Source: Gemmatimonas groenlandica
GTDB taxonomy: Bacteria; Gemmatimonadota; Gemmatimonadetes; Gemmatimonadales; Gemmatimonadaceae
Length of the DNA stretch: 64,000 nucleotides
Assembly (NCBI RefSeq): GCF_013004105.1
Contig: NZ_CP053085.1
Location: 1,302,001 to 1,366,000, forward strand
Reading direction: 5' to 3'
In this document: positions 8,862-17,778 of the stretch, piece by piece
How the letters are laid out: the number at the start of each line of letters is the position of its first letter
Position numbering within the stretch: position 1 is the stretch's first letter
Notes under the pieces: generated by a model
The model's database searches: none
The model's input: the letters and a program-made list of their open reading frames with translations, nothing else
Told to the model about the DNA's origin: nothing
Program-made: the position numbers and the translations under genes

Positions 8862-9808
8862 TGCCACTCCTCCTCACGCTGCTCTCGGTCGCGCTCGTGG
8901 CGACCCTCACGCTCGCCGCCACGGCGGTACGCGCCGTGAGTCGCCTGTGGTTGCGACATTGGATCGAGCGACGTCACGGCGGCACAGGCGCGATGGCGCG
9001 TTACCTCGAGCGTCCGGCTCGCCTGCTTCACGCCGCCGCTACGGCGAGCATGCTGACCGTATTCGCGACCGGTTCCATGATCGCCATGGCCGACGGACTT
9101 CGCGCGTGGGAGTTTCTGGTCGACGTCCTGCTGTATCTCACGTTGTTGGTGCTTGTGGGGCAGCTGCTGCCGCGCGCCGTGGGTCGTCGCTGGGCACCGC
9201 AACTCGTGCCGGTCCTCGTGCCACTGCTGCGCCTCGTCGATCTTCTCCTGACACCGTTTCACGTTGTCGCCGACCTCGTACGCCGCCTGATGACGTCGGG
9301 GCCTGCGTCGGCCACCGACGACGATGCGCGCGAAGGGCTCGAGGAGCTGCTGCGCGATGGCGCGTTCGACGACATCAGCACGACCGAGGAGATGGCAATC
9401 ATTTCCGGCGTGGTGCAGTTCGGTGACAAAGTCGTGCACGACGTCATGTCGACGCGCGCCACCATCTTCGCGTTGCCCGATGGATTGCCGGCGGCGGAGT
9501 TGGCGTCGCGCGTCGCGCAGGCCGGCTACAGTCGCGTGCCGATCTATCGCGACACGCCCGATCAGATCATCGGGATGGTGCATGTGTTCGACGTGTTCGT
9601 ACGCAGTGGTGAGACGTTACCACCCATTCGTCCGGTCACCGTCACCACGTCCACGAAGTCCGCAAAAGAATTGCTGTTCGAGCTGCTGCGTTCGCGGCGA
9701 CAGTTGGCGATCGTGCAGGATGACGCAACGGTCGTCGGGCTGGTGACGCTCGAAGATCTGCTCGAGGAGTTGGTAGGCGACATCCGCGATGAACACGACG
9801 ACGAGTGA
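8861..9808 (+). CDS. Second CNNM-like CBS membrane protein, lacking the CorC_HlyC domain
   Basis: A 315-residue paralogue of the preceding gene. It has hydrophobic segments near 3-27, 55-75 and 85-105, then a CBS pair containing VQFGDKVVHDVMSTRA, YSRVPIYRDTPDQIIG and VTLEDLLEELVGDIRDE. It stops right after the second CBS motif, so the C-terminal CorC_HlyC domain of its neighbour is absent. The ATG shares one base with the upstream stop (TGATG). The two proteins may form a heteromer; this is inference from adjacency. Confidence 0.8.
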   Translation: MPLLLTLLSVALVATLTLAATAVRAVSRLWLRHWIERRHGGTGAMARYLERPARLLHAAATASMLTVFATGSMIAMADGLRAWEFLVDVLLYLTLLVLVGQLLPRAVGRRWAPQLVPVLVPLLRLVDLLLTPFHVVADLVRRLMTSGPASATDDDAREGLEELLRDGAFDDISTTEEMAIISGVVQFGDKVVHDVMSTRATIFALPDGLPAAELASRVAQAGYSRVPIYRDTPDQIIGMVHVFDVFVRSGETLPPIRPVTVTTSTKSAKELLFELLRSRRQLAIVQDDATVVGLVTLEDLLEELVGDIRDEHDDE

Positions 9809-10926
9809 TGATGACTGAAGCGATGGCTCGACTGATGGACCAGTTTCGTGCAGGGAAGCCCGCGGCGCTCGCGCGTGCGGTCAGCATTGTGGAGAATCAT
9901 CGTCCGGGCTTTGAGCAGATTCTCGCCGTCGTGCATCCCACGCTTGGTCGCGCGCGTCGCATCGGCATCACCGGCCCGCCGGGCGCGGGCAAGAGCACGC
10001 TCACCACGCGCCTCGCCCGACGCTATCGCAACGCGGGATGGCGCGTCGGCATCGTGGCGGTCGATCCCACGTCGCCGTTCACCGGTGGTGCGCTGCTGGG
10101 TGATCGCATCCGGATGGAGGAAGTCGCGCTCGACCCGGGCGTGTTCATTCGCTCCATGGCCACGCGCGGATCGCTGGGCGGATTGGCCACGGCGACGCGC
10201 GAAGTGTGCGACGTGCTCGACGGCTTCGGTATGGATGTGATTCTGCTCGAGACCGTGGGGGTGGGACAGAGCGAGCTGGATATCTCCAGAGCCGCCGACA
10301 CCACGCTCGTGGTGCTCGTTCCGGAGTCGGGCGACTCCATCCAGACGCTCAAGGCCGGTGTGATGGAAATCGCCGACGTCTTCGCCGTCAACAAGGCGGA
10401 TCGCCCCGGGGCGGATCGCCTGCGCAACGACATCGAACTGATGCTCGGCCTGCGGGCCGGCGCGTCGATGCAGAACGTTCCGGCCCACCATGGCGTAGAT
10501 CTTCGGAACCTGCCGGACCGGGACGCCCTCCGGGACGCCATGAATCCGGCGCGCGCCGCTCGGGCCGCAGCCAGTGCCGAACAGCCGGAGCAGTGGACCC
10601 CGCCCGTGCTGCGCGTCATCGCCGCCCAGAACGAGGGGGTCGATGAGGTCGTCGACGCCCTCGATCGACACGTGCGCTATCTTGAGAGCAGCGGAGAGCT
10701 CCGGTCCCGTCGACGGGCTCGCCTGCGTGAGCGCGTCATGGAAGTGGTGGAACAGCAGCTCCGTCGGCGATTGTGGCAGGATCAGGACACCCTCACGTGG
10801 GTGGATGAACGACTCGATGCGCTCGAGGCTGGCACGCAGGTTCCGTTTGCGGTCGCCGATGCCCTCCGGGCCCGCAGTGCAGCACTTCTCACCGGCGCCG
10901 AATACGCGCCGCTTCAGGATGGATGA
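9808..10926 (+). CDS. meaB: MeaB/ArgK-type G3E GTPase, cobalamin-mutase chaperone
   Basis: G3E-family GTPase that protects and reloads adenosylcobalamin-dependent acyl-CoA mutases. It has the P-loop [27 protein letters not shown], the ETVGVGQSE switch and the NKAD guanine-specificity motif, with a C-terminal helical dimerisation arm (about residues 290-370). The start is ambiguous: GTG 9805, ATG 9808 and ATG 9811 are consecutive codons; ATG 9808 gives TGATG with the previous gene. The mutase large subunit starts four bases after its stop, so the chaperone and its client are coupled. Confidence 0.92.
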
Positions 10927-10930
10927 GCGC

Positions 10931-12625
<1,695 letters not shown>

Positions 12626-12631
12626 CGCCGA

Positions 12632-13084
12632 CTAGTCGGTCAGCAGGCGTTCCATCGCGGCGACTTCGCGCAGAAACGCCGACGCCTGCTGACCGCTCAT
12701 GTTCGCGGGATCGAAGTGGCGGGAGCCGGAATGTTTGAGGAGCACCGTCTGTCGCGCCGCTGTGACGGCGTCATTCCAGTCCACGATCTTCATCGACCAT
12801 TCCGCGAAGTCGCGCGTACTGATCTCCTCGACGCTCAACACTTGGCAGTTCGAGTGTCGCGGATCGGTGGCGATGTGATGGTACAGCGCGTTCACGGCGA
12901 GCCGCTCTCCTTCGAGCGCCTGCAGGAACTGGCCACCGCCGTAGCACAGGATGCCGGTGATCGCGCGCTCGCGGTTCGTCTCGGCCGCGGTGTCCATGAT
13001 CGTGATGAAATCACGGTAGCGCAGGTCCTCACGCGCATCGCTTGTATAGATCAGACGGATTGTATGCACGGCATTCCCACTCAC
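12632..13084 (-). CDS. BLUF blue-light photoreceptor protein
   Basis: A 150-residue single-domain flavin photoreceptor. All key residues align with AppA by exact spacing: Tyr13 (Tyr21), Asn37 (Asn45), Gln55 in FLQALEG (Gln63), Trp96 and Met98 in WSM (Trp104, Met106). The C-terminal 45 residues are helical and form no recognised output domain, so it belongs to the short BLUF type that signals through a partner protein. The start is GTG 13084; GTG 13069 is an alternative. It is convergent with the mutase (6 bases apart) and divergent from a methyltransferase. Confidence 0.92.
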   Translation of the reverse strand: MSGNAVHTIRLIYTSDAREDLRYRDFITIMDTAAETNRERAITGILCYGGGQFLQALEGERLAVNALYHHIATDPRHSNCQVLSVEEISTRDFAEWSMKIVDWNDAVTAARQTVLLKHSGSRHFDPANMSGQQASAFLREVAAMERLLTD

Positions 13085-13172
13085 GTTCGAGATCGGTCCT
13101 TCCCGTCAGCGACCCCGGCGGCGGGAGGCTAGGCGACTTGTGTGGGACCGTGGGGTTATCTAGCGTGTCCAG

Positions 13173-13928
13173 ATGAAGACGACCAGCCCTTGGTGGGCAA
13201 CACACTTTGACGCGCAGTACCTCCACGAGTACGAACCCCTGTTCAATCTCGTACAGGATCGTCGCGAGGTATCGCGTCTGCTCGACGTGCTCGAGCTGCC
13301 CTCGGGCGCGCGCCTGCTCGACTGCCCCTGCGGTCAGGGGCGCCACGCGCACCTGCTGGCCGAAGCGGGTTTCGATGTCGATGGACTCGACTACTCCAAG
13401 CCGCTGCTCGAGGTCGCCAAGCGCCGAGGCGCTGGTAAGACCCTGCGATACACCCAGGGCGACATGCGGAAGTTGCCGGCCAAGTGGACCGGCCGTTTCG
13501 ATGCCGTGCTCAACCTCTTTACGTCCTTCGGGTTCTTCGACGATCCCTACGATGACCGGAAGGTCCTGGCCCAGTTTGCGCGGGTCCTGAAGCCGGGGGG
13601 CGTGCTGATCTGGCACGGCGGCAGTCGTGACGGCGTCATGGCGCGCTTTCTGTCCCGTGACTGGTGGAGCACCGAGGACGGGACCGTGTTCGGTCAGGAA
13701 CGGCGTTTCGACCCATTGTCGGGCTTCCTTGAGATCACGTCCACCTGGCGCGGTCCAAAGGGAGACGGGGAGCGCACGCACCGCATCCGCCTGTATTCGG
13801 CGTCGGAGTTGGCGGCCCGAATGCAGGAGGTCGGTCTGGTGGTCGAGCAGGCGTTCGACGCGTGGACCGAGCGCCCGCTGACACGTAAATCCAGCGAAAT
13901 GCTGCTGGTGGCGCGTAAGGACGGGTGA
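13173..13928 (+). CDS. Class I SAM-dependent methyltransferase
   Basis: A 251-residue protein with the SAM-binding motif I LLDCPCGQGRHA, an acidic residue at the end of strand 2 (VDGLDYS), motif II GDMRKLP, motif IV RFDAVLNLFTSFGFF and post-I VLKPGGVL. This is the Methyltransf_25/11-type Rossmann fold. The N-terminus has a WWATHFD start typical of small-molecule methyltransferases. The substrate cannot be deduced. It is divergent from the BLUF gene, with 88 bases between their starts, and lies 76 bases before the B12-binding subunit gene, so it may be transcribed with the acyl-CoA genes. Confidence 0.85.
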   Translation: MKTTSPWWATHFDAQYLHEYEPLFNLVQDRREVSRLLDVLELPSGARLLDCPCGQGRHAHLLAEAGFDVDGLDYSKPLLEVAKRRGAGKTLRYTQGDMRKLPAKWTGRFDAVLNLFTSFGFFDDPYDDRKVLAQFARVLKPGGVLIWHGGSRDGVMARFLSRDWWSTEDGTVFGQERRFDPLSGFLEITSTWRGPKGDGERTHRIRLYSASELAARMQEVGLVVEQAFDAWTERPLTRKSSEMLLVARKDG

Positions 13929-14004: not shown

Positions 14005-14418
14005 ATGACTCGACCGATTCGCGTGCTCGTGGCCAAGCCTGGCCTCGACGGCCATGATCGCGGCGCCAAGGTGGTGGCTGCCGCGCTCCGTGACGCCGGC
14101 ATGGAAGTGATCTACACCGGTTTGCACCAGACTCCCGAAATGATCGCCTCGGCGGCCATTCAGGAAGACGTGGACGTCGTGGGCCTCTCGATTCTGAGCG
14201 GCGCCCATATGACCCTCTTCCCGCGTGTCCGCGACCTCCTCGTTGAGGCAGGACGCGACGATATCCTGCTGACTGGCGGTGGGATCATTCCGAAGGAAGA
14301 CATGGATGCCCTCCAGCAGCGCGGCGTGGCCCGCCTGTTCGGTCCGGGGACCAGTACGCAGGACCTCGTCGAGTACATCCGCGACTGGTTCGCGTCCCGT
14401 CAGCAGCAGGACGCGTGA
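14005..14418 (+). CDS. icmB: Cobalamin-binding small subunit of acyl-CoA mutase
   Basis: A 137-residue B12-binding domain with the base-off signature DxHxxG at Asp15-His17-Gly20, the SILSGAH loop and the [11 protein letters not shown] segment. This size matches IcmB (about 136 residues) rather than a domain fused to a full-length mutase. It should pair with the large subunit at 10931-12625, although the two genes are separated here by the BLUF and methyltransferase genes. Its stop overlaps the carboxylase start by four bases (GTGA). Confidence 0.9.
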
Positions 14419-16049
14419 GCGGGCGGCTACGCCAGCTCGCTGACGACGTTCGCGCGCTGGAAGCCCGCCTCCGACTCGGGGGCGGACCGGACAAGATCGA
14501 GAAGCAGCACAAGCAAGGAAAGCTGACCGCCCGCGAACGTGTCGAGCGCCTCGCCGATCCCGGAACGCCGTTCCTCGAGATCGGCCTGCTCGTCGCCTAC
14601 GACCGCTACGAAGGGCAGGCACCCGGTGCCGGCGTAATCACCGGCATTGCGATCGTCGACGGGCGTGAGGTGGTCGTCGTCGCCAACGACGCGACGGTGA
14701 AGGCCGGCTCGTGGTGGCCCGAGACGATCACCAAGATTCTGCGCGCGCAGGAAGTTGCGATGCGCTGCCGGATCCCGATCATCTATCTCGTCGACTCGGC
14801 GGGCGTGAACCTGCCGTATCAGGGCGGTGTGTTTCCCGGCCAGTTCGGTGCCGCGCGCATTTTCTACTACAACTCCATCATGCGGCGCTATCTGCGGATT
14901 CCGCAGTTCTCCGCAGTGATGGGGCAGTGTGTCGCTGGCGGTGCCTATCTCCCCGCCTTGAGTGATGTGATCCTGATGGTGAAGGGCACGTCGTTCATGG
15001 GCTTGGGCGGCCCGAACCTCGTCAAGGGCGCGACCGGGCAGACGGTCGACGGCGAGACGTTGGGCGGCGCGATCACGCATACGGAGATTTCGGGCGTGGC
15101 GCACTACGCACTCGACGACGATACGCAGTGCCTCGACAAGCTGCGTGAGCTCGTGGCGCGACTGCCCAAGCCGTTTCGTGGTGTGCCTGCGACGTATCGG
15201 CCGCCTGCGGTCCCGCCGTCGGCGCTGTACGACGTGCTGCCGGCCGATCACCGCATGTCATACGACATGCATGCGGTGCTCAAGGCGGTTCTCGATGACG
15301 GCGCGATCGACGAGTTCCAGCCGCACTTGGCCAAGGAAATGATCTGCGGCGATGCGCGCATTGAAGGCATTCCGGTGGGCATCGTGGCGAACCAGCGTGG
15401 TCTCATCAAGGGGCGCGCCGGCGAACGCCCGCGCTTCGGTGGCATCATTTACGCCGAGAGCGCGGAGAAAGTCGCGTACTTCATCGAGCGCTGTGATCGG
15501 CAGGGTCTGCCCATCGTCTTCGTGCAGGACGTCTCGGGCTTCATGGTAGGTCCCGACGCCGAGCACGAAGGTATCATCCGCGCTGGCGCGCGCTTCGTCG
15601 AAGCGATGGCCTGCGCGCGCGTGCCCAAGATTGTCCTCACGGTCAATCACGCGAGTGGTGCCGGATACTACGCGATGGCCGGGCAGGGATTCGATCCCGA
15701 CTTCATCCTCAGCTGGCCGACCGGCCGCATGGCGGTGATGGAGGGCGAAGCGGCCGTTGGTGCGGTGCATGGCCCCGCGCTCGATGCGGCGAAGAAGGCC
15801 GGCGTCGATCCGTCAGCGGAAGTGCTCGAGTCGGCCGCACAGATGCGCGCAGACTACGAAACGCAACTCGATGCTCGCTACGCCGCCGCGCGTGGCTTCG
15901 TCGATGCGATCTGCTATCCCGAAGACACCCGCACGATATTGGCGCTTGCGCTGCGTGCGGCGGCCCAGAATCCGGGGCCGCATCTCGGTGCCTTCGTTTT
16001 GCCCCCCATGCCGACCTACGGCGCGCCGGTTCCCGGCACGGAGTACTGA
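14415..16049 (+). CDS. Acyl-CoA carboxylase beta (carboxyltransferase) subunit, MCC-like
   Basis: A 544-residue carboxyltransferase of the crotonase superfamily that moves CO2 from biotin to an acyl-CoA. Its N-half has [23 protein letters not shown] and [16 protein letters not shown]; the C-half has [11 protein letters not shown] and [12 protein letters not shown]. The [12 protein letters not shown] and [11 protein letters not shown] blocks look closer to methylcrotonyl- or geranyl-CoA carboxylase than to propionyl-CoA carboxylase. No biotin carboxylase or biotin carrier gene is in the window, so an unlinked alpha subunit is required. GTG 14415 overlaps the B12 subunit stop; the stop overlaps AtuA (TGATG). 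Confidence 0.88.
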
Positions 16050-17419
16050 TGTCTGATTCATCGCGCGTGGTGCGCGTCGCCAGCGGTCAGGGCTTCTGGG
16101 GCGATTGGCTCGAAGCCCCTCGTCGCCAGGTGGAAGGTGGTCAGGTCGATTATCTGATGCTCGACTACCTCGCGGAAGTCACGATGTCGATTCTGCAGAA
16201 GCAGAAAGAGCGTGATCCCCGAATGGGCTACGCGCGTGACTTCATCGGCGCCATGGAAAGCGTGTTTCCGGCCGTCGCCGAACGTGGCGTGAAGGTCATC
16301 GCAAACGCGGGCGGCGTGAATCCCGTGGCATGCGCCGAGGCGCTGCTCGATGCGGCCGCGAAGCACGGCGTGCGCGGCAAGATCCGTATTGGCGTGGTGA
16401 CGGGCGATGATATTCTCGCCAGGCTCGATGACCTCATGGCCGCCGGCCATGAACTCAAGAACATGGACACCGGTGAGCCACTCTCGACGATTCGCGATCG
16501 CGTGATGTCGGCGAACGCATACATCGGATCTGAGCCGATCGTCGAAGCGCTCGCACAGGGTGCGAACGTCGTCGTGATCGGGCGCAGCACCGATACGGCG
16601 CTCACGATGGCACCGCTGCGTCATGAATTTGGATGGGCGGCAGACGACTGGAACAAGATGGCCTCTGGCATCATCGCCGGGCACATTCTCGAGTGCGGTG
16701 CGCAGTCGTCGGGTGGCAATTGCATGCACGAGTGGCGCACCATCCCCGACATGGCGAACGTCGGCTACCCGATCGCCGAGGCCTCCGAAGACGGCACGTT
16801 CGTCATCACGAAGCACGCCGGTACGGGCGGACGCGTGAGCGTGCCGAGCGTGTCCGAGCAGCTGGTGTACGAGATGGGCGATCCGCATGCGTACATCACG
16901 CCCGATGTAGTCGCCGATTTCACCAGCATTCAGCTCGCGCCCGATGGTGAGAACCGCGTGCGCGTGCACGGCATCACCGGCGGTCCGCCGACCCCGTTCC
17001 TCAAGGTGTCGATCGCGTATCGCGCGGGGTACAAGGCCGTGGGATCGCTGGTGTACTCGTGGCCCGACGCGATGGAGAAGGCGCAGATGGCTGATCGCAT
17101 TCTCCGCGAACGTCTCGACAATCTCGGACTGAAGTTCGATCAGGTGCTGACGGAGTTTGTCGGCGCCACATCGACGCACGGGGCATTGGCGGGCGACGGC
17201 CATGACGCGCCCGAAGTGATGTTCCGCATCGGCGTGCGCGGTGAAAATCGCGCCGACATCGAGCGGTTCACCCGTGAGATCGTGCCGTTGGTGCTGAATG
17301 GCCCGCCGAGCGTGACCGGTTTTGCTGGCGGTCGCCCGAAGGTGGAAGAGATTGTGGCCTACTGGCCTGCGCTGCTCGACAAGCGAGCCGTGTCCACCGC
17401 CGTCACGATCATGGAGTAA
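16049..17419 (+). CDS. AtuA family protein (acyclic terpene utilisation, DUF1446)
   Basis: A 456-residue protein of the AtuA/DUF1446 family. Marks include RVASGQGFWGD near the start, ANAGGVNP, VVIGRSTDTAL, SGIIAGHILECGAQSSGGN and TKHAGTGGRVS. The biochemical role of AtuA is not settled; it was named from the citronellol/geraniol operon of pseudomonads, where it lies with geranyl-CoA carboxylase. Here it directly follows a carboxyltransferase of that type, which supports a shared acyl-CoA pathway. The ATG shares one base with the upstream stop. Confidence 0.88.
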   Translation: MSDSSRVVRVASGQGFWGDWLEAPRRQVEGGQVDYLMLDYLAEVTMSILQKQKERDPRMGYARDFIGAMESVFPAVAERGVKVIANAGGVNPVACAEALLDAAAKHGVRGKIRIGVVTGDDILARLDDLMAAGHELKNMDTGEPLSTIRDRVMSANAYIGSEPIVEALAQGANVVVIGRSTDTALTMAPLRHEFGWAADDWNKMASGIIAGHILECGAQSSGGNCMHEWRTIPDMANVGYPIAEASEDGTFVITKHAGTGGRVSVPSVSEQLVYEMGDPHAYITPDVVADFTSIQLAPDGENRVRVHGITGGPPTPFLKVSIAYRAGYKAVGSLVYSWPDAMEKAQMADRILRERLDNLGLKFDQVLTEFVGATSTHGALAGDGHDAPEVMFRIGVRGENRADIERFTREIVPLVLNGPPSVTGFAGGRPKVEEIVAYWPALLDKRAVSTAVTIME

Positions 17420-17424
17420 CGGCC

Positions 17425-17778
17425 ATGCACATTCGCTTGCTCGATATCGCACATGCCCGCAGCGGCGACAAAGGCGACACCGCCAATGTCGGCGTGATTG
17501 CGCTCAAGCCCGAGTGGTATCCGACCCTCGTGACGTACGTGACGCGCGACCGCGTAGCGCAGCACTTCTCAGGACAGATCAACGGCGGCGTCGACCGCTT
17601 CGAACTGCCCAACCTCCACGCCCTGAACTTTCTGCTGCATGGCGCCCTTGATGGCGGCGGGACGCTGTCGCTCAAGACGGACGCCCAGGGCAAGGTCTAC
17701 TCGACCGCGCTTCTGCGCATGGTGATCGACGTGCCCGACGCCGAGGCCGTCGCGGCAGGGCTTCCGGCTTTCGCATGA
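17425..17778 (+). CDS. AtuA-associated small ferredoxin-fold protein
   Basis: A 117-residue protein beginning MHIRLLDIAHARSGDKGDT, the conserved opening of the small domain that is fused to AtuA in many bacteria or encoded right after it. HFSGQINGGVDRFELPN and ALNFLLHGALDGGG follow, as in that family. It probably completes AtuA as a separate subunit; the function is unknown. It begins 5 bases after AtuA and its stop overlaps a tiny membrane-protein ORF (ATGA). Confidence 0.8.
   Translation: MHIRLLDIAHARSGDKGDTANVGVIALKPEWYPTLVTYVTRDRVAQHFSGQINGGVDRFELPNLHALNFLLHGALDGGGTLSLKTDAQGKVYSTALLRMVIDVPDAEAVAAGLPAFA

Follow-up and report, generated by a model that had tools for sequence, protein, structure and literature searches.

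A PixD-type BLUF gene lies antisense within a conserved cobalamin-dependent mutase operon of Gemmatimonas

Results and Discussion

A BLUF gene between the subunit genes of a B12-dependent mutase

The window, by which we mean the whole 64,000-nucleotide stretch analysed here, belongs to the genome of Gemmatimonas groenlandica, a single contig of 5,179,092 bases. On its plus strand, the gene for a MeaB-type GTPase chaperone (meaB, 9805..10926; TIGR00750, 336 bits) is followed by mcmA, encoding the large subunit of an acyl-CoA mutase of split, HcmA/IcmA-like architecture (10919..12625; Pfam MM_CoA_mutase, 753 bits). Farther along the same strand lie a SAM methyltransferase gene (MT, 13173..13928), mcmB for the B12-binding small subunit of the mutase (14005..14418; TIGR00640, 177 bits), a carboxyltransferase subunit gene (ACC, 14415..16049; Pfam Carboxyl_trans, 454 bits), an AtuA-family gene (16049..17419; Pfam AtuA, 510 bits), and a gene for an AtuA ferredoxin-like domain protein (17425..17778), with which the conserved operon ends. 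Between mcmA and MT, on the minus strand, sits a 453-base open reading frame (12632..13084) that runs from a GTG at 13084 to a stop at 12632 and encodes a BLUF protein of 150 amino acids. The BLUF core is conserved from residue 6 on, and the GTG at 13069 may be the true start instead. The original prediction had placed a BLUF gene and a methyltransferase gene between the large and small subunits of a B12 enzyme, with acyl-CoA and B12 genes as the close neighbours. The gene order bears this out (12625 < BLUF < MT < 14005), as do the identities of mcmA, MT, mcmB, meaB, the carboxyltransferase and AtuA; the observation of an intact BLUF gene in a B12-mutase locus is thus confirmed.

The closest PDB match of the large subunit is that of 2-hydroxyisobutyryl-CoA mutase (HcmA, 1e-165). 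At two positions where human methylmalonyl-CoA mutase has Tyr/Arg and HCM has Ile/Gln, the window protein carries Phe/Gln, which we take to be the isobutyryl-CoA mutase pair. As in the split adenosylcobalamin (AdoCbl) acyl-CoA mutases HcmA/HcmB and IcmA/IcmB, the large and B12-binding subunits are separate and accompanied by MeaB; unlike in those systems, a methyltransferase gene stands between the subunit genes, an arrangement conserved across most of the Gemmatimonas family. MT was found in 79 of the 99 family genomes searched, and for the mutase it may be of greater consequence than BLUF. Parts of the operon are missing from two Gemmatimonas genomes (loci L037/L039): G021 lacks mcmA there, with meaB and mcmB still in place, and G004 lacks meaB, mcmA and mcmB and keeps MT, ACC and AtuA.

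The BLUF protein is of the short, PixD type

The window protein scores 102 bits on the Pfam BLUF model (PF04940; curated cut-off 25) over model positions 2-92 of 92 and aligns over nearly its full length with PixD of Thermosynechococcus (Tll0078/TePixD, 1e-25) and Synechocystis (Slr1694, 2e-24). An AlphaFold2 model built with 29 sequences (mean pLDDT 90) superposes on TePixD/Slr1694 with a TM-score of about 0.9 and an rmsd of about 1.1 Å, both C-terminal helices (109-119 and 131-149) included. We judged the residues by Tyr8, Asn32 and Gln50 of PixD, which surround the flavin, together with the Trp/Met pair; the window protein has all of them, as Tyr13, Asn37, Gln55, Trp96 and Met98. The Pfam score, the PixD alignment, the superposition of the model and the conserved residues together identify a PixD-type short BLUF, in agreement with the prediction of a BLUF receptor whose photochemical residues are intact. 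The same five residues are intact in each BLUF at this locus that is readable to its start (the G011 copy is cut at a contig end). The predicted lack of an output domain also holds, since BLUF is the sole Pfam family matched.

The resemblance to PixD extends to length, domain layout, predicted whole-chain fold and the residues of the FAD-Gln-Tyr triad, at about 37% identity. What sets the window gene apart is its address, antisense in a B12-mutase operon and without an adjacent pixE. BlsA of Acinetobacter baumannii, another short BLUF, works by protein-protein contact; it is further from the window protein (TM about 0.8, 30% identity), and no candidate repressor lies near the window gene. The product is best explained as a working photoreceptor of the PixD-type short BLUF class, with photochemistry that we infer. 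Such a receptor would combine a FAD-Gln-Tyr switch with a pair of C-terminal helices through which it could form oligomers or bind a partner.

The insertion recurs within Gemmatimonas

Among 30 Gemmatimonas genomes, the locus could be read in 25, and BLUF stood between mcmA and MT in 16 of these, always on the opposite strand. Conservation of the neighbourhood in related genomes, which the original prediction had proposed as a check, was thereby found. In G022, the junction holds a tandem pair of BLUF genes that have diverged from each other (L047:5267-6300). The G010 locus copy was considered as a pseudogene and this was ruled out, the TAG in question standing just before its ATG. The BLUFs at this locus share 50-88% identity with the window copy; for the surrounding operon proteins the figure is mostly 80-99%. 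Between close relatives, BLUF dN/dS is 0.07-0.15, compared with mostly 0.01-0.05 for the neighbours. The gene is therefore under purifying selection, much looser than that on the operon enzymes. Its recurrence in 16 of 25 loci and this degree of constraint indicate that the arrangement is more than chance.

Looser constraint would be expected if BLUF were a neutral passenger, kept by chance and of no present importance, and its probable repeated loss from the locus points the same way. We nevertheless regard a passenger as very improbable, as dN/dS lies far below 1 in all pairs and the photochemical residues are kept in every copy readable to its start.

Elsewhere in the family, 20 loci read from other genera mostly have the gene order meaB-mcmA-MT-mcmB-ACC-AtuA on one strand, and none of the 20 has BLUF at the mcmA-MT junction. 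Sixteen show an mcmA-MT gap of 0-146 bp, and the mcmA side was unrecovered in one. In the remaining three (G101, G115 and G136) the gap is filled by 1.7-3.5 kb of unrelated genes, which we judged by eye from sequence to encode a carboxypeptidase-regulatory-like protein, an aldo/keto reductase with a second regulatory-domain-like protein, and a beta-helix-like protein. These inserts indicate that the junction tolerates insertions, and BLUF appears to be one of several that it has received. Among the best 80 loci of a scan of genome contigs, Gemmatimonas alone (8 loci) showed the BLUF-mutase neighbourhood, and genes of the mutase operon were near BLUF in 0 of 71 loci outside the genus, again among the best loci of the scan.

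A promoter-like element accompanies the insertion

BLUF converges with mcmA, their stops being 6 bp apart, and diverges from MT across 88 bp, a geometry that splits the operon. In BLUF-bearing Gemmatimonas the mcmA-BLUF stop distance ranges from a few to about 130 bp, and Gemmatimonas genomes that have mcmA and lack BLUF show an mcmA-MT gap of 86 bp or less. Within the divergent region we noticed a putative -35 hexamer for MT, CTTGTG (13137..13142, plus strand), and a putative -10 hexamer, TAGCGT (13161..13166, plus strand), which begins 18 nt after CTTGTG and ends 6 nt before the MT ATG. CTTGTG is invariant and the spacing the same in all 15 BLUF-bearing genomes with a readable MT start, the common form being CTTGTG-N18-TA(G/C)CGT-N6-ATG. 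None of the 9 BLUF-free genomes examined has the element. The position of the putative -10 would give a leaderless mRNA.

A consensus scan of 12500-13300 called neither a sigma-70 promoter nor an intrinsic terminator, and the promoter-like element was likewise uncalled. Allowing one mismatch, CTTGTG-N14-TATCTA occurred once in the genome, below its backward control, and a looser leaderless form of the element showed no enrichment (2 versus 1 in the control; 2/460 versus 1/1319, p 0.17). As genome-wide enrichment is absent, we rejected the element as a genome-wide or regulon motif; these counts demonstrate no ordinary class of promoter and no light regulon. Most simply read, the operon was split by BLUF into the halves hlyC-meaB-mcmA and MT-mcmB-ACC-AtuA, and the downstream half, of which MT is the first gene, has its own, possibly leaderless, putative promoter between BLUF and MT, from which it is probably transcribed.

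Such a layout invites the idea that BLUF makes the MT-mcmB-ACC-AtuA half responsive to blue light, either through an unlinked regulator or by attaching directly to MeaB or the mutase, and so protects or adjusts an enzyme with a photolabile AdoCbl cofactor. In this form, position and orientation fixed in 16 genomes would make sense, as would a B12-binding subunit behind its own invariant promoter-like element that is present just with BLUF. There is also a precedent for a short BLUF steering a catabolic operon via a repressor, as BlsA binds AcoN and relieves repression of acetoin catabolism (PMC6595428); a metabolic target is thus possible in principle. However, the genes scanned within about 12 kb on each side included no recognised transcription regulator, a few small open reading frames there being matchless or unscanned. 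We consider such local control unlikely, and more doubtful still its bolder version, in which BLUF was captured in phototrophic Gemmatimonas to place the half-operon with the B12-binding subunit under a new blue-light-responsive promoter, so that the enzyme with the photolabile cofactor is made or switched by light.

Association with phototrophy and the light response

All 16 genomes with the locus BLUF have reaction-centre (Photo_RC) genes. Of the nine without it, G002, G004, G007, G008, G021 and G026 gave no Photo_RC match, and G001, G012 and G023 have Photo_RC genes. The locus BLUF is thus found in 16 of 19 genomes with reaction-centre genes versus 0 of 6 without them. A Fisher test gave p 0.0005, ignoring kinship. 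In a phylogeny built from four proteins of the operon, the BLUF and phototrophy traits each change at least five times, and correcting for the tree leaves about four independent pairs, about 3/4 in the same direction and none opposite (p 0.125-0.5). We therefore do not rely on the Fisher value, which ignores kinship, the tree-based test being not significant.

These counts are compatible with local control, and also with a receptor that works in trans for the phototrophic lifestyle, perhaps sensing light intensity on behalf of the photosynthetic apparatus, and is lost with photosynthesis, the mutase locus being a mere address. In favour of the latter reading, every readable genome without Photo_RC genes lacks the locus BLUF. 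Yet G007, which has no reaction-centre match in an assembly that is 79% complete, keeps a BLUF with intact Tyr, Asn, Gln, Trp and Met at another site. The converse cases G001, G012 and G023, with reaction-centre genes and no BLUF in the operon, speak against both readings, and the small number of independent pairs weakens local control in particular.

Gemmatimonas phototrophica carries the same BLUF insert. A published study of its dark-to-light transcriptomes counted just 35-41 genes that responded at 100 umol, and 128 for the 100/200 umol set; expression of TCA and respiratory genes fell, and photosynthesis genes were barely light-regulated (PMC11406998). The main text of that study, which does not name every gene, contains no mention of the BLUF gene or the mutase locus; the minimal response is for this reason weak negative evidence against local control. 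That photosynthesis genes themselves hardly respond also counts against a photosynthetic accessory, which we hold to be a rather poor prospect.

The BLUF lineage at other addresses

Phylogenetic analysis of the BLUFs groups the locus copies together (support 87/85) with BLUFs encoded elsewhere in G007 and G010. The G007 gene adjoins an EamA transporter gene, the mutase site of that genome being empty of BLUF, and the G010 gene adjoins an alpha/beta-hydrolase gene. A clade of locus copies only was rejected (p-AU 0.02), the group having been chosen with the earlier tree known. The simplest reading is that BLUF entered the mcmA-MT junction of an old conserved operon once, early in Gemmatimonas, and would later have been lost from it several times. 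The original prediction had named, as speaking against light control of the B12 locus, BLUF genes at unrelated places in related genomes together with no light effect on the locus. Half of this is what we see, in that the G007 and G010 genes at unrelated places are nested in the locus clade. Light control of the mutase is accordingly a possible, unsupported suggestion.

Outside the locus group, the BLUFs of G006, G009, G018 and G029 adjoin a cheA-cheW-MCP operon, and so do BLUFs of two other genera (G032 and G088; G101 and G137). The eight cheA-linked BLUFs do not form one clade in the best tree, and such a clade was not rejected (p 0.22). Their neighbours suggest that a motility context is likely the older one for the family. 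Motility-signalling neighbours, typical for PixD-type proteins and not strictly defining them, were absent from the window copy and the locus copies. In the cheA-linked BLUF of G088 (L208:7040-7504), Glu replaces the flavin-facing Gln. The source genome has another short BLUF among chemotaxis/response-regulator-like genes at about 2.55 Mb (L065:7097-7531, minus strand); a CheA-like match falls at about 2.553 Mb.

A sensor that probably acts in trans

In PixD, blue light rearranges the FAD-Gln-Tyr hydrogen bonds, PixE is released in a light-dependent manner, and phototaxis is affected (PMC5899715). Proteins with the PixE-like PATAN domain (PF14332) occur in 27 of the 30 Gemmatimonas genomes, with or without BLUF; those of the source genome lie at 1.71 Mb. 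We therefore rejected PATAN proteins as a BLUF-specific, PixE-like partner, and this distribution singles out no partner.

On balance, we think it somewhat probable that the locus BLUF is a working PixD-type sensor acting in trans, most plausibly on motility or chemotaxis signalling, and lodged at an insertion-tolerant junction. Blue light would alter its binding to a partner encoded elsewhere, and the adjacent mutase genes would not be specifically controlled by it. We prefer this reading to local control, a photosynthetic accessory or a passenger given the lack of a recognised regulator nearby and the minimal light response published for G. phototrophica. It draws further weight from the presence of the same BLUF lineage elsewhere in G007 and G010, and from other PixD-like BLUFs of the family beside cheA-cheW-MCP in three genera. 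Against it, 16 species keep the place and orientation, all with reaction-centre genes, so that the place could matter; the locus copies themselves show no cheA link, and the PATAN proteins, occurring independently of BLUF, point to no partner. A divergent region such as the 88 bp between BLUF and MT is moreover a classic layout of local regulation, which also counts against action in trans.

While the protein type was already known, three features are confined to Gemmatimonas within what was searched: where the gene sits, the splitting of the operon, and the promoter-like element. None of the three was found in the literature searched. That literature, as far as accessible, gave no sign of a Gemmatimonas BLUF study, BLUF being cited just for comparison with the side chain of a tryptophan. 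The locus, where a photoreceptor gene runs antisense inside a conserved operon and a promoter-like element is tied to its presence, is a clean natural experiment on how operons break up. Local light control, if true, would be the first link between a flavin photoreceptor of the BLUF type and an AdoCbl enzyme within the literature searched; if false, the locus would be a warning against inferring function from neighbourhood, even one conserved across a genus.

With AppA, a BLUF-SCHIC protein, the window protein shares the BLUF fold and residues and not the domain layout, since the SCHIC or B12-binding domain is missing. A different gene of the source genome, at about 3.80 Mb (L066:6188-7252, minus strand), encodes a 354-aa protein with BLUF, weak C-terminal matches to AppA_SCHIC/B12-binding and an E-x-H-x-x-G motif. 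Six other Gemmatimonas genomes have genes resembling it, and this BLUF-SCHIC-like protein offers a more direct lead to a connection between BLUF and cobalamin than the window gene does.
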